The position numbers were made by a program, and so were the translations under genes. This document shows positions 9,853 to 46,124 of a DNA stretch of 64,000 nucleotides, one piece after another. Below the pieces are notes generated by a model that was given only the letters and a program-made list of their open reading frames with translations, made no database searches and was not told the DNA's origin. Within the stretch, counting starts at the first letter, position 1. Every line of letters begins with the position of its first letter. The stretch comes from Liolophura sinensis (taxonomy: Eukaryota; Mollusca; Polyplacophora; Chitonida; Chitonidae). The DNA lies in assembly GCF_032854445.1 (NCBI RefSeq), contig NC_088302.1:48266046-48330045 (forward strand), written 5' to 3'.

Positions 9853-12800
9853 TCACTTCATGAAATCCTGAAGCTGAGTGACCACTTCTGCATCTGTGTT
9901 GTCCATCAGTTGGCTAAAGGCAGTCTGACCGACCATCTGACAGCAGCTGGACAGCTGTGAAATGATGTATTGACGAAGATCCACAGTGTGGACAGGGTCC
10001 TGGAGGGAGAGCTGAGGGGAAAACAACATAAGTTTTACTGTAATTGTTAACATTTTCGCATGTTTGTAAGGTGTTTATTAGAGCAACATTATTCTGTGTA
10101 CACTGATTAAATCATACTTTTTGTGAAGCCCTGAAACTGGCCAATTCAACCAACCAATGTAGTGTTGTCTCCAAAATTAAGAGTCCATGAACTACACTGA
10201 AAGTTGTTTTTTCAAATGTGAAAAGATTGAGGAATTAGGGTATGTTCATTTTTAGGAACAATTTTTAGCTAGAACAAAATTAATTTTTTTTGTCATCTGA
10301 TTCTTTCAAAAATTGAATAAATCACCACAATTTCAATTCTGTAAAGAAAAATCATACAAATTTTATACATAAAATGGTGATGTATAAAGAAGGGAGATAA
10401 CTAACCAGTCTTTTCCTCTTGTCATGTTCTGTGTCTGTCTCCTCTTCACCCAGAAATTCTTCAGAATTTTGAAGCACCAGACAGCTGTATTGAGAAAACA
10501 CACCCACACTCTGACTAAAAACTGGCTAAGTTAGTCCAGATCAAACATCAGGCATACTGTTGGTACCTTTAGCCAAGGGTAAACATACATATCAGGTGCA
10601 AGAAAAGGTTAACAGAGATCTGTTTGAAATCTGAGCGCTACCGAAGACAGCACATATATTGAATGTACAGTTTAGAAATCTGTACCAAAGAGTCAAGAGA
10701 CAGAAAGTGGAAAACAACATTTTACAGGGAATTGACCAGAAAGTTTAAAACCTGTGAAAAAATATTATTTTCACACACACATATATGTAAATGTCTGTGT
10801 ATAATAGCGAGTCCTCAGTTTGTTAGGGTGCTAGCACAGCATGATGACCCAGCAGTCTCTCACCAATGCGGTCACTGTGAGTTCAAGTCCAGCTCATGCT
10901 GGCTTCCTCTCCAGCCTTACGTGGGAAGGTCTGGCAACAACCTGCAGATGGTCGTGGATTTCCTCCGGGCTCTGTCTGGTTTCCACCCATCATAATGCTG
11001 GTTGCGTCGTATTAGTGAAATATTCTTGAGTACGGTGTAAAACACCAATCAAATAAATAAATAAATAAATAATAATGAGTCAATCCTGAAAACCAGGTAC
11101 CAAACCCCGTTTGAGCAATCTACTTCTGTTGAGAGCTTAAAAAGGGCAAATTTGCTGATTTAAAGGTCTTGGGTACAGACCAGGAATTGAAACTGTCGGC
11201 CATGGTCACAAAGGGGTAAGCCCAAACTTACTCTACGTGTTGAGCAGAATCCGAGTCTGACCGCAGGACGTCATTTAGCACCTCCACACACACATTGATA
11301 ATGCCAGAGAACCGCTCCAGTACAGTGCTGACAATTGACATGACAACAACAACAGAGCTATAATAAAGTCATGACAAGGCATAACACACAGTTTTCTCTT
11401 CAGGATAAACATGTCATAATTCTGGCAAATTACATTAGAATTATACCAAAACATCCAAAAAAAAAAACAACCATGTACATTAAAATCCAATGGACGGAGC
11501 ACTTTTCTCTGTACAATCATCTTTAGCAAAAACACTGAGGTTCAAGATGATTTGTCTGTAAAATCTACATGTACACTCTACATAGACCTCATACTTCCTT
11601 AAAATATCTTCCTTTTCATTTGTTTTTGTGAAAAGAAACACAAACCTTTTCTTTTCACCTGATAATCCTGCATTGTTAAGAAAAAGTTATGTGTCCCAAC
11701 ATCCAACATTAATCTCAGTGGCCATCACCTCAGTATTAAAGGAATGTCAACCTGTAGTTCCAAAATCTCAACTCTGAGCACATTTAAAACCACACTCCCA
11801 GGCCATATCTAGAGCCATTTCAGTCAAAAAAAAAAACAAAACAAAACAAGTACACTGAACAATAATTACTGATAACAAGTGAAGTTTTCACATAACTTCT
11901 GCTTTAAAATCTGTTTCGTTTACAGATTTTAAAGCTCTCATTAGGAAACGTTTGGATTTTATAAAATTTCTTCATGTATAGTCACAATGTCACCATTAAA
12001 GTTTAGGATCAGAACCTCCGATCATACATGATGAGTGCCATGGCTTACCTGAAGTTCAGTGTTAACAAGGAAGCCAGAGCAAGGGCAGACAACTTCCTTC
12101 TCTCTGGTTGTGCAATGTAGTCTATCTTCTCAAACCAGACATCTAACAAGCAACCAAACAGTTCCTGGCTCTGAAGAGATGAACAGGTCTATTATTAAGT
12201 CTCACAGTAATGTAAGTGTACATAAAATGAAAAGTAAGTTATGACGTGTGATCATTAACGGAGTTAAATTCTTTATATCTGAGCTTCAGGGCAGGTTCAA
12301 TGTTGCTGTGACAGCGACAAGATTTTTTTTTAAACTCAGCTGAGGTAAGTTTTGGCTTTGGAGCTGGTATTACTTTTATTGCTATGATGTCTATAAAGCA
12401 TAATAATATTGTATAGGTGATGCAGCCCGACTGAATTGTCAGTCTGAAGATACCAGAGATAAGTCATCTCTCCCAATTATAAACTTATAATGCCAGTATA
12501 CCCGTAAATTTGTCCTTTCCTTAAATGCTAAGCATCAAACCAAGAAACACAACTTCAGAACCTTTGGAGTGAAATAACTAAGGAAATAAGCTGGGTCTTC
12601 TTTACATCAGTTGTTGCAGACGTTCTGGCCACAAGATATGTACATCTACAGGAATGTGTATGTCGAAACAATTCCTAGTAATACACTACCTCTGTCCTTC
12701 TATGACTAACACACTTACATCTTTTCCAAACTCTGAAGCCACTTGGTTGAGAAATGACCACATAAATTCCTGGTTTTGAAGAAGGATTCTGGCCAGCATA

Positions 12801-15800
12801 GAAAAATACATGGCTATCACAGTGCCATGCTCCTGCAACACAGATGTAATAGTGCAGTCAGATTCTCATGACAGCATGTTACTCCCGAGGATGTACATAT
12901 ACATAAGACATATTCTTAAACATGTATTTCTGAGGTATAACCACACACAATGCTGTATTACTCTCAAACACTTTTGATGTTATTCCAGTAAAATTGTCTT
13001 ACTTGATCTCATGTCTGTGTCAGTCCAACATCACACAAGAAATATGTTCATGTCATATCCAGCCAGTTGTACAGAAACCACCAAAGATTTTGTATGTGAA
13101 GACACCTCCAGTTAGAAATCACTAAATGATTTACTTTCAAATTCATTTCGAACAAAGGCGTCAGTTCTCTGTTGTAAATATTCAATATTTCGCTCGGAAC
13201 TGCAGTAGCTATTTAGGTACAACTTGTATTATCATTCAAACAAGCCATTTCCCCAAGCAGTCAATGCAACTCACCTCCCTCTCCAGTATGGCCTTGATCA
13301 TAGCTGGCAGCATAGGACGGAAGACTTGAGGGCCCTCTATAGGGAATGTCCTCAGCACCAACTCTACAACCTGAACATAACACATAAACAAAAATTTCAA
13401 ACAACATGCAGATAACACAATAAATTATCAGGCACCGGAAAACTTTACTTGCATAACATGCTTGCTCAAATTGTTTTGCTTGTTATTTTTGAGAATGGGA
13501 CAACCTCAGACTTGCTTAGTTTGTTTTGTTTTTTGATTTTTTTTGAGACTGGGTCGACCTTATACAGTTTATATAATGGATATAAATTGCCTTTTGAAGG
13601 GTAACTAACCTCAGGCACAACATCTGATGGACTTCTCCCTGTATTAAACAAGCCCAAATTTGCAACAGCTGTGACATCTGGCAAAAGCTAAGTCGTCTTG
13701 CACTCAGGTTGTTAAGCTGTTATGTGAATGGACCACGTTAACAGATAGAACATCAAAGAGACAGAATGCCTTTAATAAAGCCTTCAGTTTTCACACAGGC
13801 TGACAGTGTTAACTATTGCCGTGTTTGTTATTGGGTGGCCTTCACAGCCCAGGCTATTGGGTGGCCTTCACAGCCCAGGCCCCGGGATCACACAGCCATC
13901 TTAGGCTTAAGTCTTAAATTTCAATCTATAAATCTGGTATCTTTCTTTGTGTTATTTTAGTTGAAAATTGTTGTCACAATCTGAAAACTTTCCCAGAATT
14001 TATGTCACCCAGCAATATTTTGACCTTGTTACATAAGAAATACCGTGGCTCAGTAGGTTAGCGCGCTAGCACAGCGTAATGACCTAGCAGTCTCTCACCT
14101 ATGCGGTCGCTGTGAGTTCAAGTCCAGCTCATGCTGGCTTCCTCTCCGGCTGTACGTGGGAAGGTCTGCCAGCAACCTGCGGATGGTCGTGGGTTTCCCC
14201 CGGGCTTGGCCCGGTTTCCTCCCACCATAATGCTGGCCGCCGTCATATAAGTGAAATATTCTTGAGTACGGTGTAAAACACCAATCAAATAAATAAATAC
14301 TTAAGAAATAAGAATTCTAAAGTAATCTGAAATTTTGACTTCAATCTAAGACCGCTTCATGATCCCCGAGTCTGGTCGTAAAGTGCAACTCTCTCGGAGA
14401 ATCTGCCCGGATTCCTCCCACCATAATGCTGCCCATCGTCATATAAGTGACATACTCTGGAGTACAGCATTGAACAAAAACCAAAGAAATAAACAAACAT
14501 AACAAAACTTGCAGACTTGCCTTGAGGATAATAACAAGGGCCTCAGTTCTGACATCAGTCATCAAACTACACAATGACGTCACCAAGCTGGAGGCGTATT
14601 TCTGAAAAAAAATAAAATAATGACAATATTGAACCATTATTAACACATCCCAGTCCTCTAAAGACATCAGTATTCTGCGTCAGTTATTTCTCATTACGTG
14701 CACATACATTTCTACACTGCCCATGTTCAGCGTAATTTATATGTCACACACAAGATGACTTCAAAGCAAAACAATGCCAACAAAACAGTTAACAAAAACA
14801 AAAGCTAAAAGAGAAAAAAAAAGCAAACAATATACAAAAGGCTGACTGAGAACATTCCCTCAGCTGACAACTTTTGGATTTTGTAAGCACACAATTTCAG
14901 TCTTAATGTCCTGAAGAGAGTTTGTCATCGTACAGAGACTTCTGCTAATCAGTACATTTAGATGTCAAGTATGCCTACAAAATCCACAGAACAAAACATG
15001 AAGGCATCTGGGTAATAACTTCAGGTGACTCGCTTGCACTGATGTCTATGTACACTGAATATCTACCTCCATCAGTTCTTTTGGCCCCAACAGTAAATAG
15101 GCTTCTATAATTCTCAAGGAAACTCGTAAATTCTCTGATCCAAGTTCTGAAACAGGCAACAAAAAAATCTCAGAAATTTCGACACTTGCTGATTTAAATT
15201 ATATCATTCATGTCATTCTACTGAAGATTAAATTCTAAGATAGACTCTCAAAAAAAAAGGAAAGCATTAAATTTAAGAGAAAGAAATTTGATCGAGGAAC
15301 TATGTTAAAAGTGTCTCTGGGATCAAGAGTTCCTGAATGGGCTAAAAAGGAATTTCACAGTTCTCGTTTCAAGTTTATTAAGGGAATTGTGAAGAAAGCT
15401 CACCATTTCATGTTACATTTAGTTACCTTAATGACTTGTGTTACACATTTTAATTTATGTATTTAAAACATGTACACATATCCTCAACAATTCTACAGTA
15501 TCAATAAATATCAGTAAGCCTGTTTCCTTAGTAGTAATCCAAAACAGAAAATAAAATACTCATAACCTGGCCTGTGTTGAGTACCAGTCAAGCTACTTGA
15601 ATCCACATATACAAGCATATTAAACCGTTTAATATGTATTTATTAGATTGGGGTTTCAGTCTGTCTGTGAAAACAATGCGTTAGGCAAATGAGCTAGCCA
15701 GGTGCTGGATTACAGTTTAAACATTACAGCCTGCATTACAACATGAATAACTCAACAACTGTTATTCTCCTCAAACTTCCAGACCATGGTATAAATTCTG

Positions 15801-18800
15801 TTTTATTTTGACAGCAAGGTTCACAAAGGTATCCTGACCTATGCTCGTGATTTCAAGTCCTTAAAATGCAAGAGGCATAAAAGACAACGTTGTAGCTCTG
15901 AAAACGACTAAATCAGAGCCTATCCAATAATGATCCTGACACTCTGCCTGTTTGCCCCTCCAACTACCAATTAGCATAAGTGTACGACATAGAAATATGC
16001 AATGTGGAACACTAACACAACTTGGTAGAAAAAGGGGAAAACATGTGAAAGAAGCGAACTTTTCCCAAAAGCCTCTGATTAAATATAACTTTGATATGTG
16101 AAAAAGTGAAGGTTATAAAAGTCCTGACCTTCAAGGCGTACAGAAAAGTGTAGTAAGCCTTACCCAGGAGAGCTGGCATGTTTCTGAAGAGGGAGATGAG
16201 ACCTTCAGTAATGACGGGGGAATTATGCAGGGTGACATGCCACAGCTCTAACCCATCCTCCATCAGGTAAATGTGAGGGTCCTGGGTCAAGTCGGTACTC
16301 ATCTGGATCACAGGCAGCAAAAAGTGGAACATACTGGCACAAGTGGTCCCTAAACCCTGTAACATGGTGGAAACAATGAGAACAACACAGCTACGAAAAG
16401 TGGAACAAACTGGCACAAGTGGTCCTCAAACCCTGCAACAATGTGGCAACAATGACAACAACACAGCTACAAAAAGTGGAACACACTGGCACAAGTGGTC
16501 CCCAAACCCTGTAACATGGTGGAAACAATGAGAACAACACAGCTACAAAAAGTGAAACATATTGGCACAATTGGTCCCCAAACCCTGTCACATGGTGGAA
16601 ACAATGAGAACAACACAGTTACAAAAGGTGGAACATAGTGGAACATACTGGCGCCAGTGGTCTCCAAGCCCTGCAACAAGGTGGCCACAATGACAACAAA
16701 CTCAATAAATCTATTTATTCATACATACTGAAGATTCATACAATGGCAGTTTTACGGGTGTAGGAAACCGGTGGCCAGGGTAAACATCCAACATCTGTGA
16801 AGTTCCTGACAAACTTTTACCCACATCAGTGGAAGACAAGCGCTCATTAAAGTAATGTTAGAATGTACACTAGTCAACCAAAACACCACAAACAACAAAA
16901 GCAGGGAAATCCACAAATACCCTGTAACAGGGCCACGCGTCTGTTCTACGAAGCAGTTGCAACATACAATGAAAAGATATGTCTCCATAGTAAATGTGTT
17001 TGAGGTAGCATTATGACCGCTTTGTAGAACAGGACCCTGCTGTGAACCCAAAGCCTGTGATTTCTCAACAAACAAGCTAGCACCTTTAACCACCCAACTG
17101 CAGCCCTCTTCCCTCTCATAAACATAAAGTGGAACGCACTGAAAACCAACCACTGCAACACTTTGGCTATGATTACAAAAAGACATCATTTACAGTTGAG
17201 GCATACTGGTAAAATGTTCCATAAACCCTTTAAAGAGATGCTACCGATTATAACCTTTTGGTAATAAACTGATTATTTATACATATACTCAATATCAAAT
17301 GTATTACCTGGACAAGGTGGATAAGTGTGGTGAGAATGGCACACCTAAGCATGTTGTGTTCTGATGCATCTTGCCAGAGGATGGGAAGGTACTGGACCAG
17401 GGAGGAAGCATGGGGTCGAATCTGTACCCCCACTCGCTCTATCACAAAGGATATCACATGTAAGATATGCATCTGCCAACACAGAATCAAATCATGCACC
17501 AAATATTAAAAACAATGGCAAAAACAAAGTTCCATGTAGGTGTAGACAATAAAGTCAAGAAAAGATTCCTTGAGTCTGCATGCATGGGATCAGTTACAGC
17601 TTGTAAATAATGGGAGATAGAATGTCACTCACTTTGTCTTGACTGATTATTTAACCATGTTTTCATTGTATCTTATTACAGCTTCTCTGAGTTTAAGTTT
17701 ATTTCAAATTTTCATCATGGGCAGTGTATGTTGTTGTTACCCATTTGTACAACAAGCGTACATAAAGTAATACAGTTTTATTGTTAAGTAGATATTCCAC
17801 CCTGTTACTCACATGTACAACACGTGTGCATAAAGTAATACAGTTTTATTGTTAAGTAGATATTCCACCCTGTTACTCACATGTAGAACACGTGTACATA
17901 AAGTAAAATAGTTTTATTGTTAAGTAGATATTCCACCCTGTTACCCTCATGTACAACACATGTACATAAATTAAGAGTTTTATTGTTAAGTAGATATTCC
18001 ACCCTGTTACTCACATGTACAACACGTGTACATAAAATAATGTAGTTTTATTGTTAAGTAGATATTCCATCCTGTTACCCACTTGTACAACATGTGTACA
18101 TAAAGTAATATAGTTTTATTGTCAAGTAGATATTCCACCCTGTTACCCACTTGTACAACACGTGTACGTAAAGTAATACAGTTTTATTGTAAAGTAGATA
18201 TTCTACCCTGTTACCCACTTGTACAACACGTGTACATAAAGTAATACAGTTTTATTGTCAAGTAGATATTCCACCCTGTTGCCCACTTGTACAACACATG
18301 TACATAAAGTAATACAGTTTTATTGTAAAGTAGATATTCCACGCTGTTACTCACATGTACAACACATGTACATAAAGTAATACAGTTTTATTGTCAAGTA
18401 GATATTCACCCTGTTACCCATGTGTACAACATGTGTACATAAAGTAATACAGTTTTATTGTCAAGTAGATATTCACCCTGTTACCCACTTGTACAACACG
18501 TGTACATAAAGTAATACAGTTTTATTGTCAAGTAGATATTCACCCTGTTACCCACTTGTACAACACGTGTACACAAAGTAATACAGTTTTATTGTCAAGT
18601 AGATATTCACCCCGTTACCCACGTGTACAACATGTGTACATAAAGTAATACAGTTTTATTGTCAAGTAGATATTCACCCTGTTACCCACTTGTACAACAC
18701 GTGTACATAAAGTAATAGTTTTATTGTCAAGTAGATATTCACCCTGTTACCCACTTGTACAACACGTGTACATAAAGTAATACAGTTTTATTGTTAAGTA

Positions 18801-21800
18801 GATATTCCACCCTGTTACCCACTTGTACAACACGTGTGCATAAAGTAATACAGTTTTATTGTCAAGTAGATATTCCACCCTGTTACCCACTTGTACAACA
18901 CGTGTACGTAAAGTAATGTAGATTTATTGTTAAGTAGATATTCCACCCTGTTACCCACATGTACAACACGTGTATATAAAGTAATGTAGATTTATTGTTA
19001 AGTAGATATTCCACCCTGTTACCCACATGTACAACACGTGTACATTAAGTAATGTAGATTTATTGTTAAGTAGATATTCCACCCTGTTACTCACATGTAC
19101 AACACGTGTATATAAAGTAATACAGTTTTATTGTCAAGTAGATATTCCACCCTGTTACCCACATGTACAACACGTGTACATTAAGTAATGTAGATTTATT
19201 GTTAAGTAGATATTCCACCCTGTTACTCACATGTACAACAGGTGTACATAAAGTAATACAGATTTATTGTAAAATAGATATTCCACCCTGTTACCCACTT
19301 GTACAACACGTGTACATAAAGTAATATAGTTTTATTGTTAAGAATTATTCAAGAATTCTTTATTTTATCTGTCATTCGAGCATACCTTACTATCACATTC
19401 ATTGACATCTTTCAATAGCTGGAACAGAAGGCCAAAAGCTGTATCCAGGTACTGCAGAAGAAATAAATTATTTTCTGGATTAACAAGGCAATCTGTTGTG
19501 ATTTAAGTTTGTGCAACACGTAATCAGGAAGTTAACATGGTTAAGATTAAATACATATTCATATGAGAAATTAATAGCTGCCTTTTGAAAACAGTTTACA
19601 ACCATCCACCACATACAACAATAATTTCAGGAACTATGCATATAGGAAGCTTTCAGTAATCCTTTAAGCCAAGCATATTAAATATCACAGAGATGCATAC
19701 TCCTTTAAATAAGAAATATAATATTCCCAAGATAAATAACAAGGCTTAAATACTCACAGGAAGAAACTGTTCTGTCTTGAACTCAAAATCATCCACAGGT
19801 GAAAGCAGTTAAGGATTTGGAACAAAACAGTATTGTCTTGGCACAAATTTCTGCCAATACATTTATCGGGCCTCTGGATCACAAAGTGATCTTAGGTTTA
19901 AGTCAAAATTTCAAATTACTTTAAAATTGTTATTTCTGATCTAACAAGGTCAAAATATTGCTTGGTAATGTAAGTATTGGGTAAGTTATTGTACAACAAA
20001 TTTCAGCTAAAATAATGGAAAGGAGCATACCAAATTTAATGATTAAAATTTTGACTTCAGTCTAAGATTGCTTCATGCTCCTGGGCCTGATCTCTTAACC
20101 TTTCCACAAAGATGAAATCGCCATCAGACAAAATGCATTTTAGGTTCTGAAAAACACTTACATTTTTGCCTGAAATTACACATGGGGTTAATTTGCATTA
20201 TTTTTTGGAATGGAGATTCACTGATAATATTATCTTCACCCCATGAAATTTTAAAGGATTACAGCTTAAAGACTACCAGTAAACTGTGTAGCAGTTTTCT
20301 TTACCTCACTATACAGACCATAACTTATCAATCACATCAGAGATATTACATAATACTTCATTTCAGTAGCCAATTAAACACAAGGATATCAGTCTTCAGA
20401 GTAGTAGCTGCTTCTATGCGAACCACCAAATCCTCATCATGGTTCAAGAGGGGCAGGATGGCCTCGTAGAGAGCGGGGCGTAGACTGACTGCCATCTTAA
20501 CTCCCACCCACTGTCCTGCTACCCAGATCACACGCCGGCGGATAATACGATAGCTGAGGAGAAAAATACATCCTATTTGAAGGCCTCTTCACACTACATG
20601 TAACCATACGTTATCAATCTTATTTTGTTTACATGGTGCATATTAAGACATATTTTAAAACATGTACTGTAATTCATAAACCTTTTTGCATGTTTTCAAG
20701 ATGTTTATTCAAGCATACTCTGAGGGCATTATTCTACATAGACTGAAACAATTACACTTTTTTTTCAAGCCCTGAAATTGGTGAACCCAGCTGATGTTGT
20801 TTTGTCTCAAAATATCAAAACAAAAAGCTGCACAAATCGCACAGTTATTTGCCCTTTCAGACGCGAAAACCTGGTCTTGCCTTTTTACTTACAAACATGT
20901 TGGAAAACAAGAATTAACATTAACCCTTTTCGCAACCTTGCAATCAGGTATAAAACATAAAGTCTATATGTATATATAAAACAAAAACTTGACAATTACA
21001 ACCCCACAATTTCAGAGTGTCTAAAATAAAAGATCCCCCTCGTCATACTTGGGATGCTTGATCTTGAGTTCTTGGACTAAATGTGTTGAGAACCAGTTGT
21101 TAAAATCCACCTCATCATATAGATCAAATGATGCAAGACCAACAGCATTGTACACTGAAAGACACAGAGCAAAATCCTACTAAATTGTTAATGCATGTAC
21201 TAGAAAGAAGAACAGCAAAGAGGACGTTTCTTGAGCACCTGAACCGCTACAAGGATTGGTCAAAACTGCGCCAAAATTAATTTTTTTTCCACTGTAATGC
21301 TACAATTCTTGTGTTCTATTTAAGCGTCTTATGCACATATATTTATCAACAAGTGTGACATAACAGGAAAAAGCAAAAAGAGTACACAGCTATAAACAAA
21401 AAATAGCTTCTGTTCTGCATAAATCTGTCACTTGTAGACTGAAAACCTTAAAAATTTTAAACAACCAGCCATGTTTGCCTTTTCAATGCTTTGCCGTCTT
21501 CTCTAGACCGGAGGCTTGTCGTCGTGCTTATAGCTTCTTCACAGATAAAAATTATCCATTATACAGGACAAATGAAAAATCCACATCGTGGACAATAGTT
21601 CGCTCCTCACCAGGTTCATACACACAAAGGTTAGAAATGCCGAACATGACTGTCTATCCAAAGTTTGTTGGATCGGAGACTATATATGGCTGACATGACC
21701 ATAACAGAAGCCAATTTTAGTCCAACAAAAGTGTGATCCAATTGACTAAGAATTGTAAATTGACAAAATATTAGGCAACATACCCGGCACTTTGGGCAGG

Positions 21801-24800
21801 AACCTCTGTCAGACAGACGTTAGCATACAATGTCTAATTCTTTAGGGTCCGTTGATACTGAATTTAATACTCATGTACTGCACTGAAGCATACAAAAATT
21901 ACATTTAATTCTGCTAATAAAAGCCATCAGGAAGACTATTCAAATCAGGATAAGCTGACTGATGTAAGCCAATGTTTTGTACCTGCTTCCTTCCTCAGCA
22001 TGGCTGCCATGTCGTCAGGGTCACATGGTCCCTGTAAGCCATTCACTATCTCCAGCAGCACAGGGGTTAACGTCTGACGGAACTCTTTGAACAGCGACAA
22101 GAACAGCACCTCTGTACACGGCTGAAAAAAATGAAGGTGACCAATGCATTTCACAGCAGCAAATAAATACTTCAAGTACAACTGGGACATCTAATGGGCC
22201 CTACATGCACAAACACAGTGACATAAAATAAACAGAAAAATCTTATGACATTATATCAAATCAAATCAAAACAAACTTTGTAAGTTAGTTAGAAGTAACA
22301 GCAACAGTGATAAAAGCAGACAACAGAAATATAGATGTAAAAGAAAAGATAACACTAGGCCAAATGTATACATGCATCAATCAAGTATCCCACAAGAAGT
22401 TTAAAAAGCGTAACTTTCTCCTTGTGAGACATAGCACAAATGATTTATCACTTTTGAAAGTAAGCCAAATTGCACATACTGAGGTAAACGAAAGCGGGGA
22501 CATCAGGCATGAGTTGTAACTATGACCAGAGGAAACATCTGTTTCCACTTAGGTCACTCAAACCCTGCATTGCCTTTTAACCATATGGTCTTGGGGTATG
22601 AGGGTTACAACATTGTGTTTCCGGTTGCTCTGATTCCCAATTTGTTGATTTGAGCTACCAAGCACATTAAAAAACTTAGATTTGGTAGCAAGGCTACCAG
22701 AGAGCTTTTTTTTTTACCACAAAGAATGATTGTCACTTTTGAGACTTACCCTGAGGGAAAATCTAAAACTGTCTCCACCTTCATCGAGAGCTGTAAAAAT
22801 CAGTATAATTTCACAATAATACATGAATATATTGTTGATTTACACCATTTTCTTCCATTAGGTTTTTGTTTTGTTTCTGAATAATCCTTAACGTTGTATT
22901 CCAACATCAATCCCCCATCAAGATACATTTCAAATGATTATTTCTTAAACTTTCCTAAAAGTTCCTAAGATATCTTCACTTTTACAACGAACAAATGCTA
23001 GCAGGAATAATACAAGAAGTTACATTTTTTAGGATGCATAATATTACCAGTCTTTGTTAGCAAAGTTACCATAATCTTCAGGATCCGCATCCCATGTCAT
23101 CAGGTCATCTGTCTTCAACAGAAAGTAGTTTGAGACGAGCTGTCGACAGATTTCTGTCAGGACGCCAGGCGTGAAGAACTGCATCTTGATTTTGTAAGCC
23201 TCAAGAGTAACCGGGTCCGCAGTATCTGGGTGAATATATATTTATTTATTTGATTGGCGTTTCACTCTGCGCTCAAAAATTTTTTCCCCCAAAAAAACAG
23301 TGATCAGGTGAATGGGTAGAGTAAGCTGGAGTAAACCAATGACCTTCACCAGGTACCTGACTAACCGCTGGACTCAAAGCCCCAACCCAAAAAGTGAGAG
23401 GCAGATTTGAACACGCAACCTGACTGGTCAATGGCCTGACAGTGAAATATGGACAAATACAGTATACAAGTTAATTCACCTTTACATGTATTTATTTCAT
23501 TCATGTTCACAGCTGAGTGATATGCTCTAGAATAAATCCCTGAATTGTGTGAGACAGCAAGTCAATAAGATTACATGTGATAAATAAAACTATAACATCA
23601 AAGTTTTATTTCCTGTACTCTGTTCAAAATGTCAAAAGATACATTTTCAGGTGGAGCACAACTTTGTGCATTAGAATTTGACAATATCACATTATTCAAT
23701 TTCAGAGCTACGAAGCTTTCCTCATGAACAGTCATCCCAAAGAGAGACTAACCTTCAATGTTCTTAGCTGGTCTATACTCTTCACAATGAACAATGCCTT
23801 TCATCAAGTTGAACGAGTTTACAATAAATCGTTCAAATAAAATTCCTGAAAAAGAAAAAATATTTTATACAATCTGAAACAACCCCCCAAAAATATATAC
23901 ATACTCTGTAATAAAATTATTGAATTTCTTGAAGATGGACAGCTTCGTATGAACTAATTTGTCCAAAACATCCATATTTTAGTCACTACACATATGCAGC
24001 AGTTGGATTTAAAAGTTGCAGTGAAATCAGTGTTCAAGAATTAGTGACCTTTCCACAATGGTTTGAGTGGATGGTTGTGGATTAGCCCAGGCACTGTTAA
24101 CTTTCTTCCCAGCATAATGCTAGGTGCATAGATGAAATCGTCTTCTGTACAGTGTACAAACTTCAATCAAATAAATAAATAAAGAACAGCTTGGCCAGAG
24201 AATCTCAAACCAACAACAAAAAAATCAACAAAAATCTATTTACGTGTAGTTCTTACCTTGTCCAACATCGGTGAAGGTGTATGCAACCACAAAATCGAGA
24301 GTTGGCCTGATGTACTGAACATACGAAGCTGGATGGGACTCTAACATGTCAAGGAGCTGACAACACAGAGAAATATTTAGCAGTTAAGACAGGATATGCC
24401 TCAAGAGTTGTCAACCTCAAACCTGTACGGATTCAAGACTTCAACATACCGAGAATTATGAAGAGGAAAAACCTGTCTGTGACATTCGGACTTAAACTCG
24501 TAAGCTACTCTGCATATTTTCAGTAAATAAATTAGAATTGTTCCATAGTGTTAAAGTCTGCTAAACCAAATTAAAATTATAGGTGCATCAATACATGTAC
24601 CTACCACTTTGGTCATCAACAATGTCAGTTTCTCTACTTTCTCAACCATCTGGTGATTCCCCCACAAACTTCTTCCTATTTAAAGAGAAAAAAAACAAAC
24701 AAATGTTTTGATTTTATCCAACAATGTTTCAAGTCATTCTGAAAAAAAAAAATAAAAAAATAAAAAAACTCACATTTTCCTTTATAGTTATATTTCCTTG

Positions 24801-27800
24801 TCACTTCACCATATATCACTTAGATATACGGTTAACATGTTACTAAATATCTCTATCAAAACAAGCTTGTCATCACTTTCGATCAAGTAAACCTGCACAA
24901 AGTATATGCTAATCAACAGACACATGTTAGAATGAAAGTAAATGTCAACCACATACTGCACTCCAGAGTGGGTTTAACTTTCTCAAACACCATGGTCAGG
25001 AACGTGTTGATCAAGGGGTTCTTCTGGGGATCCCGAAATCCAAATGCAGCCTGTTTCCTGAGGACTACCAAGAGTACATATACACATCATAAAGGAGTCA
25101 ACCGTCTACAGCAAGAATGTATTTATCTGACTGGTGTTTTATGTCGTACTCAAGAATATTTCACCTATGCAACGGCGACCAGCATTATGGTGGGAGGAAA
25201 CCGAGCAGAACCCGGCGGGAAACCCACGACCACCCGCATTTTGTTACCAGACCTTCCCACGTACAGCAGGAGAGGAAGCCAGCATGAGCTCGACTTGAAC
25301 TCACAGCGACCGCATTGGTGAGAGGCTCCTGGGCCATTGAGCTGTGCTGAGGTGCTCGCCACGGAGGTCCCCTACAGAAAGAACTCATCAGGTTATTAGT
25401 CACAGAAAACAGCTGACCAATGGTGTATCTCTGTAAAATGTACTCTTAAAATATCTAAATACACTACAAACTGTATAGTCTACCACAAAGATTAAAATGA
25501 AATTTAGATCATTACAATTCAATCAAATGTACAAACAGTTGAACAAAATTGGTGATGCATATTTTTATATTTCATCCCCTTGTTATGATACTATCTGTTG
25601 TGAAAAGCAGAAAATATTATTATTTTACAAGCATGTGATTATTCAGAATTTATTTAACCAGAGCTTAACCCATATTCAAGGGTAATTAAACTAATTTCTA
25701 ACAAAACAGACTGTATGCGGACACCACACAAAAGTAAAAAAAATTAAATTTTTGCAGTCGTGACAAAAGCTATGAAGTTATCAAAACCCACAATACTGCT
25801 CACCTCTCAAACTAAGAGTAGCTCTATCCACTGCGGCTAGCATCTGTTCATCATGCTGAGACGCCAACTGGAGAAACTCAGAGAGGTGCTTATTCCATAG
25901 GTCCAGAATAAAACCAAAGATATCCAGAGTCAGCTTAACATAGAAAAAATAGATATTTTTAAATGAAAAACAAGCCACTCAAGATTTAATGAATTCGGAT
26001 CTATAACGAATGAATAAGACTGTGAAATTACACAGGTCCTCCCAGCAAACCCTTCTCAGTACCTCAAGATTTTCCTTCTTTTGTAGGTTTTCTTTCACGT
26101 GCTTGTGGTTGGACTTTCTGTCTCAAGCTTATGTTATTACTACAGGTATGTTTTTCTCAAGTAAAATCTGTGCCAAGTAAAATCTGTGCCTTCAATGAGA
26201 GGTGTATATTTCACTAGTACATTTAACTGTATATAGACAAAATTAAAACTGCTCTACGTGACAACACACTGAGATAAAGCATTGCAAACAAGAAAGTATA
26301 TAGCAAACTAGATTGTTCTAAAGTGAAAAACAAATGACTATGTAAACAAATGAAGTTAACATCAAACACTGTATGTACCTCTTCAAAGACCTTTCTATCG
26401 GAAGACAGCCTCTTAGATGCCAGGGTTTTGGTCACATGATGCAGAACTAGCAGCGCCCTCTGTTGCAGTAAATCCTCTGGACAGCGCACCCCTTGAAGAA
26501 GCGTGGGAATCAAGAGAGGCCAGTTGCGTGGACAGTCCAGACGGGCCACTTTACCTATGAGCACAGCTAACTGTGTGGCAATCTGCTCAAACACATCAAA
26601 GACTGACATTTTAATTGTGTACCTGAAATGTAAACATCAAAAGACTGACGAGCCAGGTGAAAAAAAAAAATACATTACGCTGTTGAATGTGTCAAATATC
26701 AGTTAAATGCAAAAATACTGGAAACTTGCATTAATTGCACATGAAAAATCACATGCTTCTAGGGTCAAACAATAATACCATGTCTAAATAGCTTCCCCAA
26801 AAAAGCTTCCAGTGATCATTAGAAGTCTCCAAATTGGGCAAAATGTGCAATTAAGTCATGGGTGAAATTTTACATGTAGGTCTTTTAGAGTAAAAGAGGT
26901 AATTTCTAGTTTGTTTACTTCTTTACATTTACTTTTCTACATGAAACTGACCTGAGGAACTGGCTCATTAAATCTGTAAATCAATCTTTTCCTGATTTCT
27001 TCCTTCTCACCCTCAGGGATAGCACTGTAATTCGAGAAACAAACCAGGAATGGAACATCTTGACAGAGAGTATTCTGCATATGGCTCACTCGGATCATCA
27101 ATTGCAAGTAAAACGCTCCACGTCAGAAATATTAACTTCTATTTATTTAGGTGCATTGTTTTGCCTGTATTGTGTGCATTTCCTCGTCTTTACAGGTCTC
27201 ATTTATCAGGTTAAATGCGAAAATCTTTTTCATAAAATGAAACAGTTGCCTTTTAAAATTAAAATTACTGAGATTAATTTGATTTAATTATTTTACTGGT
27301 GTTGTACCATCACATTCATGCGTCAGGAATATTTCACTTATCCCTTGGTGCTTAGGTTTATGAGTAGAAAAAACCAGAGCACCCAGAGTGAACAACTAAC
27401 TTCTGCTAGGTACCTCACCTTCAGCAGCAATAGCTGAAATCGATCTTGCAATCTCTCTGGTCAAGTTACAGCCAATTAATTGACATCAGTTTGCAGGTAG
27501 ATGATGATTTTGATCATACACCTAGCAATATTTATGTACACAACCATGTGCTTACTTAGGCGCCGATTTCCTCCAGTATCTGTCCACACCATTCTTGAAA
27601 TACAGCACTGCCAGCCATCTGACATTGGAATCTAAGCTATGGTTTAGAAAAATGGTCTGTGAGAAGAAAAATAAAACTTTAAAATTAACGAAAAATGTAG
27701 AAATACCATAACACTACCAATAATTAAAACAAGGTTTTAAATTACTAACAAGGAGTAATATAGGTTATCCACTACAGACTTTTCGCTTACAAGAGATTTA

Positions 27801-29043
27801 CTGTCTGCCATATTGACAGCATGGGACTGCGCACATTCCTTGTCCAAGGCTGGGTGTCGGGAGCAGTAGATCCAGGGTCAATCGTGGGTTGAGTCACACC
27901 TAAGACCTTAAAAGAGGAAGTTGTAACTTCCTTGCTTGGCATTCAGCATGAAGGGGATAGTGCAATGACTGGTTGACCCGTATCAGTATAATGGTTCGGG
28001 TGGGGCAGCTTACTTGCTTTCGGTAAGTTGTCTCAGTGAAGCAGCACTTGATAAAAGAGTGGTGGAAATCCATCATGCAACAAGAAGGCACATTACATGC
28101 ACTCTAAGGATTCCTTCGTCGTCACATGACTTAAAAATTGTTAAGTACAAAGCTAAACCCCTAGCACTCACTCACTCCACAGCTGGGGGTAAATCTGTGC
28201 CTTGTGTGTCCTAGGGATTGAAAGGCAAACACTTTGACCACTGCTCTCAGGACATAACAGAGTAGTTCACTTTTAATTTAATCTCCAAACATGCATGCCC
28301 ATACTAATTAAACTTTAAAGCAAATGTTGTATAAAAGCAAGAACATGCATGCTGTATACTGCAATAAATCCTTTGTCCACCTTTTTCAAGAAGTTTACAA
28401 ATCTGAGCACTACAAAATCAATAAATCTATCACTGAGGTATTTTCTGTTCAGATCAAACTCTGTCCAATAAGCCATGACGGTATTTCAGAAGTCTCCAAA
28501 ATTTGGAGGTTTAGACAAGACAAGGTGGGGACTCTCACCAACTAATGTGGCTATAGGGCAAGGTTTCACAGTAGTTACTAAACTGAATATATATCTTGCA
28601 TAGTCATGTATGTCAGCTCAATCACACTGTTAGCAGCTCCTCTAAATCACGTCTTTTAGCTACGTTAGCTAACGAGAGCCCCCACTTGTAAGAGTTCTTA
28701 AATGCAAACACTAACACAAAGTATTCATAGTAGTACTGACTGGATATTGTAAAGTATAGCCGGCTGACACCAGGCTCATTTAAGTCAGACAAAAGAGGTT
28801 GGACTTGAATGAATGGAGTTATGGACAAAGTGACTTATCACCTGGTCTGCTAAACTTTACTTATGTCTAAATGATGTTACATAACTACATGTGGCGTCAT
28901 TTGTAACCTACAGACAATGCCATATGGAATCCTGGTTTTGTCTGCCAGTCCTCTAGCTGCTGCTCTGCTGGTTTTAGCACTGTGGAGTCCTGGCTGCAGG
29001 CTCTTGTCAAAGTATCCAGCACAATCGCTTCAGATGAATCCAT
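9853..29043 (-). CDS. IPO11: Importin-11 (nuclear import receptor), 26 coding exons
   Basis: Karyopherin-beta family receptor that, in vertebrates, imports cargo such as ubiquitin-conjugating enzymes in a RanGTP-dependent way. Exons, 5' to 3' on the minus strand: 29043-28912, 27656-27556, 27024-26952, 26582-26379, 25933-25804, 25064-24957, 24675-24605, 24356-24257, 23845-23753, 23225-23070, 22790-22750, 22121-21983, 21154-21049, 20553-20390, 19798-19758, 19451-19386, 17472-17308, 16356-16164, 15146-15067, 14601-14521, 13370-13275, 12832-12719, 12170-12049, 11327-11232, 10484-10406, 10011-9853. All phases join, giving 2910 nt (969 aa plus TGA), close to the vertebrate length of about 975. The importin-beta N-terminal repeat is in exon 1 (VLKPAEQQLEDW), and recognisable family blocks include KVARLDCPRNWP, PCTEVLF, LTPVLLEIVNGLQGP, RCAILTTLIHLVQ, LMEDGLELW and DPVHTVDLRQ. 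The start is the only in-frame ATG before the conserved block. Intron 14 is AT-AC and intron 20 is GC-AG. Individual boundaries were placed by eye. Confidence 0.95.
10040..10235 (+). repeat. Unclassified interspersed repeat, copy 2, in IPO11 intron 25
   Basis: Same order of blocks as at 5985: TTTTCGCATGTTTGTAAGGT, ATTATTCTGTGTACACTGAT and TTTTTGTGAAGCCCTGAAAC. Confidence 0.7.
10809..11074 (+). mobile_element. Full-length tRNA-derived SINE in IPO11 intron 24
   Basis: The tRNA-like head includes the B-box-like GAGTTCAAGTCC. The body has GGCTTCCTCTCC, CACCATAATGCTGG-type and AAATATTCTTGAGTACGG, and the tail is CCAATCAAATAAATAAATAA. It lies antisense to IPO11. Confidence 0.85.
13879..14371. mobile_element. 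TIR element (MITE-like) interrupted by a SINE, IPO11 intron 20
   Basis: The left end GGGATCACACAGCCATCTTA, then GGCTTAAGTC, is the inverse of the right end (GACTTCAATCTAAGACCGCT, then TCATGATCCCC). A second copy without insertion lies at 19869-20095. The SINE at 14039-14299 sits inside this copy and so is the younger insertion. Confidence 0.7.
14039..14299 (+). mobile_element. Full-length tRNA-derived SINE nested in a TIR element
   Basis: A-box-like TGGCTCAGTAGG, B-box-like GAGTTCAAGTCC, conserved core ending GAGTACGGTGTAAAACACC, and an (AAAT)n tail. Confidence 0.88.
14372..14505 (+). mobile_element. 3' fragment of the same SINE family
   Basis: Contains CCTCCCACCATAATGCTG, ATATAAGTGACATACTCTGG and AAAGAAATAAACAAA, a diverged copy of the SINE 3' half. 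Confidence 0.65.
16320..16700 (-). repeat. IPO11: 76-bp tandem repeat overlapping IPO11 exon 18
   Basis: About five copies with a 75-76-bp period (AAAGTGGAAC recurs at about 16321, 16397, 16473, 16549 and 16624). The unit is made of the first about 35 nt of exon 18, its acceptor, and adjacent intron. Four further copies therefore lie upstream in the intron, each with a TTACAG, TTGCAG or GTGACAG followed by GG. Confidence 0.88.
17739..19345. repeat. 68-bp minisatellite, about 24 copies, filling IPO11 intron 16
   Basis: The unit contains TTGTACAACACGTGTACATA, AAGTAATACAGTTTTATTGT and AAGTAGATATTCCACCCTGT, with a period of 66-68 bp. It takes up over four fifths of the intron between exons 16 and 17, starting about 40 nt inside the exon 16 donor. 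Most copies hold the hexamer CACGTG within the imperfect palindrome GTACAACACGTGTAC. Confidence 0.95.
19799..20389 (-). other. IPO11: U12-type AT-AC intron (IPO11 intron 14)
   Basis: No GT-AG pair can join exon 14 to the conserved VDDFEF block, because no AG lies near the needed acceptor. On the minus strand the intron begins ATATCCTTG, the minor-spliceosome AT-AC donor consensus. It has the branch-site motif TCCTTAAC about 10 nt before the end and terminates in TTTCAC. Joining G (20390) to CT (19798-19797) gives TLKTAVDDFEF, which aligns residue for residue with vertebrate importin-11 (TLKLTVDDFEF). Confidence 0.9.
19869..20095. mobile_element. Uninterrupted copy of the TIR element, in IPO11 intron 14
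   Basis: Left end TGGATCACAAAGTGATCTTA, then GGTTTAAGTC; right end TTTTGACTTCAGTCTAAGAT, then TGCTTCATGCTCC. It matches both ends of 13879-14371 and lies wholly within the AT-AC intron. No ORF. Confidence 0.65.
20665..20815 (+). repeat. Unclassified interspersed repeat, copy 3, in IPO11 intron 13
   Basis: TTTTTGCATGTTTTCAAGAT, TTCAAGCATACTCTGAGGGC and CAAGCCCTGAAATTGGTGAA in the order seen at 5985 and 10040. Confidence 0.7.
23235..23450 (-). mobile_element. SINE with a different body, minus orientation, IPO11 intron 9
   Basis: Starts TATTTATTTATTTGATTGGC, the reversed common tail, but the body reads CAGGTACCTGACTAACCGCT. The far end GATTTGAACACGCAACC reads as a B box on the minus strand. 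A related body is at 27275-27490. Confidence 0.55.
24040..24183 (+). mobile_element. Degenerate SINE 3' half, IPO11 intron 8
   Basis: GATGGTTGTGGATTAGCCCA, CCCAGCATAATGCTAGG and TTCAATCAAATAAATAAATA match the common SINE with many changes. Confidence 0.6.
25116..25372 (-). mobile_element. Full-length SINE, minus orientation, IPO11 intron 5
   Basis: Reverse of the common family: CAAGAATATTTCACCTATGC, CAGCATTATGGTGGGAGGAA, GACCTTCCCACGTACAGCAG, GACTTGAACTCACAGCGACC and CTCCTGGGCCATTGAGCTGT. It shares the IPO11 transcription direction. Confidence 0.88.
27275..27490 (-). mobile_element. Degenerate SINE, minus orientation, IPO11 intron 2
   Basis: TTATTTTACTGGTGTTGTAC, GTCAGGAATATTTCACTTAT and TAGGTACCTCACCTTCAGCA resemble the variant at 23235. 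Confidence 0.45.
27845..28185 (+). mobile_element. Second SINE family, long degenerate copy, IPO11 intron 1
   Basis: Contains AGATCCAGGGTCAATCGTGG (B-box-like), GCTTGGCATTCAGCATGAAG, CACATGACTTAAAAATTGTT and the tail CTAGCACTCACTCACTC, in the order of the copy at 37355. Confidence 0.55.

Positions 29044-32408: not shown

Positions 32409-46124
<13,716 letters not shown>

Follow-up and report, generated by a model that had tools for sequence, protein, structure and literature searches.

Intron 14 of the importin-11 gene (IPO11) is most probably a functional U12-type AT-AC intron with the junction 20389..19799, a reading to which we assign a probability of roughly 95%. The intron occupies 19799..20389 (591 nt, phase 1) on the minus strand of the window, by which we mean the whole 64-kb stretch of DNA that was analyzed, and we infer from its sequence that it is actually spliced at these sites and by the minor spliceosome. 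It separates exon 14 (164 nt, 20390..20553, minus strand) from exon 15 (41 nt, 19758..19798, minus strand), which encodes AVDDFEFKTEQFLP when the split codon is included. Read on the minus strand, the intron begins with ATATCCTTG and ends with TCCTTAACTGCTTTCAC, and its borders are ...ACTCTGAAGACTG/ATATCCTTGTGT...AAATCCTTAACTGCTTTCAC/CTGTGGATGATTTTGAG, such that the exon 14 end ...GCTACTACTCTGAAGACTG abuts the intron start ATATCCTTGTGT on one side and AAATCCTTAACTGCTTTCAC abuts the exon 15 start CTGTGGATGATTTTGAG on the other. Left unspliced, the region contains stops in all three frames; joining exons 14 and 15 gives the frame ...VVRIEAATTLKTAVDDFEFKTEQFLP, with the peptide TLKTAVDDFEF across the junction. 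The sequence-only reading that preceded this analysis had named a donor, a branch motif at the right distance and a terminal AC, and each of these was confirmed to the base: the donor ATATCCTTG lies at 20381..20389, the branch motif TCCTTAAC at 19808..19815 with the branch A at 19809 (-11), and the AC acceptor at 19799..19800, all on the minus strand. The nearest AG 5' of exon 15 is at -40, compared with -11 for the branch A, and use of the terminal AC yields the conserved reading frame, as evidenced by both the enumeration of splice pairs and the alignment to yeast KAP120 described below.

The host gene, which the sequence-only reading had taken to be importin-11, was identified as such by domain content and by structural homology. 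Its whole coding region spans 9853..29043 on the minus strand and comprises 26 exons encoding 969 aa, with a TGA stop at 9855-9853; exons were chosen on the basis of open frames, splice sites and, in part, human IPO11. Pfam matches were obtained to TPR_IPO11 (2.1e-94), the IPO11-specific C-terminal repeats, and to IBN_N (2.8e-19), the importin-beta N-terminal domain. Yeast KAP120 (PDB 6fvb), a relative of importin-11, aligned with residues 19-968 of the 969 (E 6.6e-81), and the next best chain reached only E 3.2e-9 over residues 20-202. At the junction KAP120 reads TVRTMVDDWNF against TLKTAVDDFEF here, with no gap; the predicted intron 14 junction is supported by this alignment independently of the human protein. 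Among the 25 introns of the model, 23 are GT-AG, one is GC-AG and one, intron 14, is AT-AC. The GC-AG intron is intron 20 (AAG/GCAAGT; window 13371-14520, minus strand). A 19-nt microexon was also seen in IPO11 at 22768-22750 (minus strand), and the polypyrimidine tract preceding it is weak (3/15 pyrimidines).

Both splicing signals of intron 14 conform to those expected of the minor class, whose AT-AC form is rare. Its donor agreed with ATATCCTT at 8/8 positions (+1..+8), and its branch motif agreed with TCCTTAAC at 8/8 positions and within 10-15 nt of the 3' junction. In the donor comparison across the gene, intron 14 matched RTATCCTT at 8/8 positions, whereas the other 24 of the 25 IPO11 introns matched at 3 to 6 of 8. 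The position following the donor 8-mer is less typical, in that T is common at +9 in minor-intron donors and intron 14 has G, which would count against the U12-type reading. Published U12 signals consist of the same donor, ATATCCTT, and the same branch motif, TCCTTAAC, placed 10-15 nt from the junction, and intron 14 resembles the U12-type AT-AC introns described in those reports (PMC2426677, PMC2831892) in donor, branch motif, spacing and terminal dinucleotides, differing from them in its host gene, IPO11, and in the dispersed repeat that it carries. It is, in this respect, an ordinary instance of the known U12-type AT-AC class and a clean example of it.

To be read by a minor spliceosome these signals call for the corresponding small nuclear RNAs, and the search for U11, U12 and U6atac genes that the sequence-only reading had proposed recovered all three above the Rfam cut-offs, together with U4atac. 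In the 609-Mb genome from which the window comes, and among the best candidates, which were those scored, the matches above cut-off numbered 4/5 for U12 (3 strong), 2/2 for U11, 2/2 for U6atac and 1/1 for U4atac; an Rfam scan of the window itself at gathering scores returned 0 matches. The U12 snRNA-like sequences include a cluster of four matches at C1:65318678-65336263, two strong and two weak (one of the weak ones below cut-off), and a further strong copy lies outside this cluster, on C12. For all four U12 loci examined, TCCTTAAC could pair with U12 at 7/7 positions, leaving the A bulged. U6atac from both loci could form 6/7 pairs with donor positions +2..+8, and U11 from both loci five pairs with +4..+8, one of them G-U, the U11 pairing ending at +8. 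Protein components were also represented, with four exon matches above cut-off to Pfam CCDC84 (CENATAC) and two to PDCD7, the second of which passed only jointly with its neighbor.

The donor motif by itself is not rare in the window, since the 8-mer ATATCCTT was found 4 times in the 64 kb against 2.7 expected. What is improbable is its occurrence, with the branch motif, at a junction that the reading frame has already fixed. When the letters of the window are modeled as a first-order Markov chain, the donor 8-mer has a chance of 2e-5 at the frame-fixed junction, and TCCTTAAC, placing its A anywhere from -10 to -15, a chance of 1e-4; the joint chance for both U12 signals at the frame-forced junction is ~2e-9, a figure that holds to an order of magnitude only. 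The same signals bear on whether intron 14, with its AT-AC ends, might instead be processed by the major (U2) spliceosome. Counting against such a reading are the fit of the intron 14 donor to the U12 consensus at every one of its eight positions, the exact TCCTTAAC with its A at -11, and the fact that the donors of major AT-AC introns look like ATAAGT. Major AT-AC introns do exist, human SYCP2 and TAF2 being examples given in PMC8280824, and we regard major-spliceosome processing of intron 14 as very improbable.

Splice pairs were enumerated across exon 14, the intron and exon 15, with donors taken from 20453 on and introns of at least 40 nt. An open frame was left by 9/808 GT-AG, 7/377 GC-AG, 11/1317 AT-AG and 16/1073 AT-AC pairs, and among these open-frame pairs both TLK and VDDFEF were retained by 0 GT-AG, 0 GC-AG, 0 AT-AG and 4 AT-AC pairs. 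Three of the four flank-keeping AT-AC pairs add residues, and in two of these three the acceptor would be the AC within the branch motif; 20389..19799 alone aligns ungapped to KAP120. The earlier claims that the AT-AC splice restores the conserved TLKxxVDDFEF sequence exactly and in phase, and that no GT-AG splice does so, were thus both borne out, the former by TLKTAVDDFEF standing ungapped against KAP120 and the latter by none of the 808 GT-AG pairs keeping both flanks. GT-AG, GC-AG and AT-AG junctions were rejected because conserved residues are lost in every open-frame pair.

A major intron of the GT-AG or GC-AG type with another junction, used alone or nested in a twintron-like arrangement, would nevertheless have in its favor that GT-AG is the commonest type, that open frames exist for both types in the numbers just given, and that three of the GT-AG pairs, all using donor 20381, keep TLKT. 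The sequence-only reading had itself named a frame-keeping GT-AG splice as grounds for abandoning its junction; such splices were found, in that nine GT-AG pairs stay open, but none restores the conserved sequence and each loses at least 6 residues. More broadly, all 16 open-frame GT-AG and GC-AG pairs lose between 6 and 23 reference residues and none keeps VDDFEF; KAP120 has VDDWNF at this place, and the presence of both U12 signals at forced sites is improbable by chance. We therefore give an alternative major-class junction only a very slim chance of being the true one. The mildest of the GT-AG pairs is 20381..19782 (minus strand), which changes TLKT-AVDDFE-FKTEQ to TLKT-DIL-FKTEQ, a loss of six residues (AVDDFE) and a gain of three; this pair, which would splice from the GT found at +9 in the U12 donor to an AG within exon 15, is a weak-looking, twintron-like in-frame alternative. 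Because a GT stands at +9 and the pair leaves an open frame, a low-level U2 alternative splice may occur at 20381..19782. That the gene is decayed or misassembled and the intron unused, as the old repeat within intron 14 might suggest, is scarcely credible given a 969-aa frame open over 26 exons with a nearly end-to-end KAP120 match and an own-genome search that found no other IPO11 locus, its three matches all being exons of this one.

In the favored account of intron 14 as a U12-type AT-AC intron, U11 and then U6atac would recognize ATATCCTT at the donor, U12 would pair with TCCTTAAC and leave the branch adenosine bulged 11 nt 5' of the exon, and the minor spliceosome would join ...GACTG to CTGTGG... 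in phase 1. The same own-genome search yielded no IPO11 retrocopy showing the spliced form.

The sequence-only reading had also proposed that the intron had taken up a terminal-inverted-repeat element, and this element proved to be real and to belong to a dispersed family of at least 40 copies with inverted-repeat ends. The copy in intron 14 is MITE-like, ~223 bp long, and lies at 19867..20089 on the minus strand, its boundaries being judged by eye in the alignment. With the intron as query, the 40 matches scored of 1917 candidates comprised the window copy and 39 dispersed copies, the latter ~190-240 nt long at 81-88% identity; 22 further matches were shorter, none exceeding 90 nt. Of the copies, twelve could be aligned over their whole length. 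Against a consensus built from the other 11, the window copy diverges by 10% and the 11 themselves, which contributed to it, by 8-13%. The two ends of the consensus are inverted repeats that agree at 44/45 positions, and within the window copy the two arms show 77% complementarity over 39 nt. Short length, many copies and terminal inverted repeats, features typical of a MITE, were all found, and no target-site duplication was evident by eye in the 12 copies.

This insertion lies clear of the intron 14 donor and branch site, and its arms pair, as judged by eye, within the predicted fold of the intron. RNA structure as a cause of the shape of the intron was rejected, since the intron as a whole is not unusually stable (z -1.21), with 9/100 shuffles at least as stable. 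We read the MITE-like insertion as a passenger in intron 14, where it would ride between the donor and the branch site. Other repeats were observed within and around the gene. A 68-bp tandem repeat in ~24 copies (17735-19342) occupies most of IPO11 intron 16, and a dispersed repeat whose reading frames yield similar peptides occurs at window positions 10663-11029, 14057-14316, 25165-25371 and 32784-32964; the latter repeat is also present in the IPO5 region.

IPO5, located in the same genome via PF18829 and examined over the surrounding 20 kb, proved to contain another AT-AC intron bearing U12 signals. This intron, at C12:18157965-18158607, has the borders TTCCACGATG/ATATCCTTTTG...GACCTTAACCTTTGTCAC/ATGTACGG, with the donor ATATCCTTTT and the 3' end GACCTTAACCTTTGTCAC. 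Both flanks were kept by 0/1577 GT-AG, 0/630 GC-AG, 0/2255 AT-AG and 4/1106 AT-AC pairs, and the junction was picked from the four AT-AC pairs on the basis of U12 signals and ungapped alignment. The joined exons encode KFYFHDDVRISAAES and align ungapped with importin-5 (6xte; E 4.7e-42); the first 23 residues of the query used in this comparison were in the wrong frame, and the aligned part starts at residue 17 and continues to its end. With the IPO5 and IPO11 cases, AT-AC introns bearing U12 signals number at least two in this genome, and the two found both belong to importins. A shared, paralogous intron position was rejected because, as judged by eye, the intron of IPO5 falls directly ahead of VRISAAES and that of IPO11 lies 11 residues past the start of VRIEAATTLKT.

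In humans, IPO5 intron 21 is a minor AT-AC intron, according to PMC8280824; intron 14 is of the same subtype and its host gene likewise belongs to the importin-beta superfamily, but it differs from the human intron in gene and in place within the protein. The different sequence contexts of the IPO5 and IPO11 AT-AC introns agree with PMC9120149, which describes 187 LECA introns, none of them shared among eleven nuclear-transport paralogues. No publication pairing IPO11 with minor splicing was found in a search that covered main texts, and supplements or the U12DB, IAOD and MIDB databases could well list it. The terms importin, IPO and RanBP are absent from the main texts of PMC2426677, PMC2831892, PMC6717393 and PMC7367187, 'importin' appears once, in a reference, in PMC3564746, and the literature on RANBP11 and introns contained nothing on minor introns in titles and the opening lines of abstracts. 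According to PMC10639083, minor introns are comparatively abundant in molluscs, and AT-AC introns make up ~26% of the minor introns of humans.

A gene finder limited to GT-AG and GC-AG introns would be expected to mis-join IPO11 at the 41-nt exon 15. The position of intron 14 may be shared across animals, as the sequence-only reading had suggested. We consider it unlikely that intron 14 is lineage-specific, that is, absent or U2-type in the IPO11 of other animals and acquired by gain or by U2-to-U12 conversion; if it were, then with the separate IPO5 AT-AC intron two importins would come under joint A-type (CENATAC) minor-spliceosome control. Intron 14 offers a clean case for tracing the conservation of minor introns in nuclear-transport genes.
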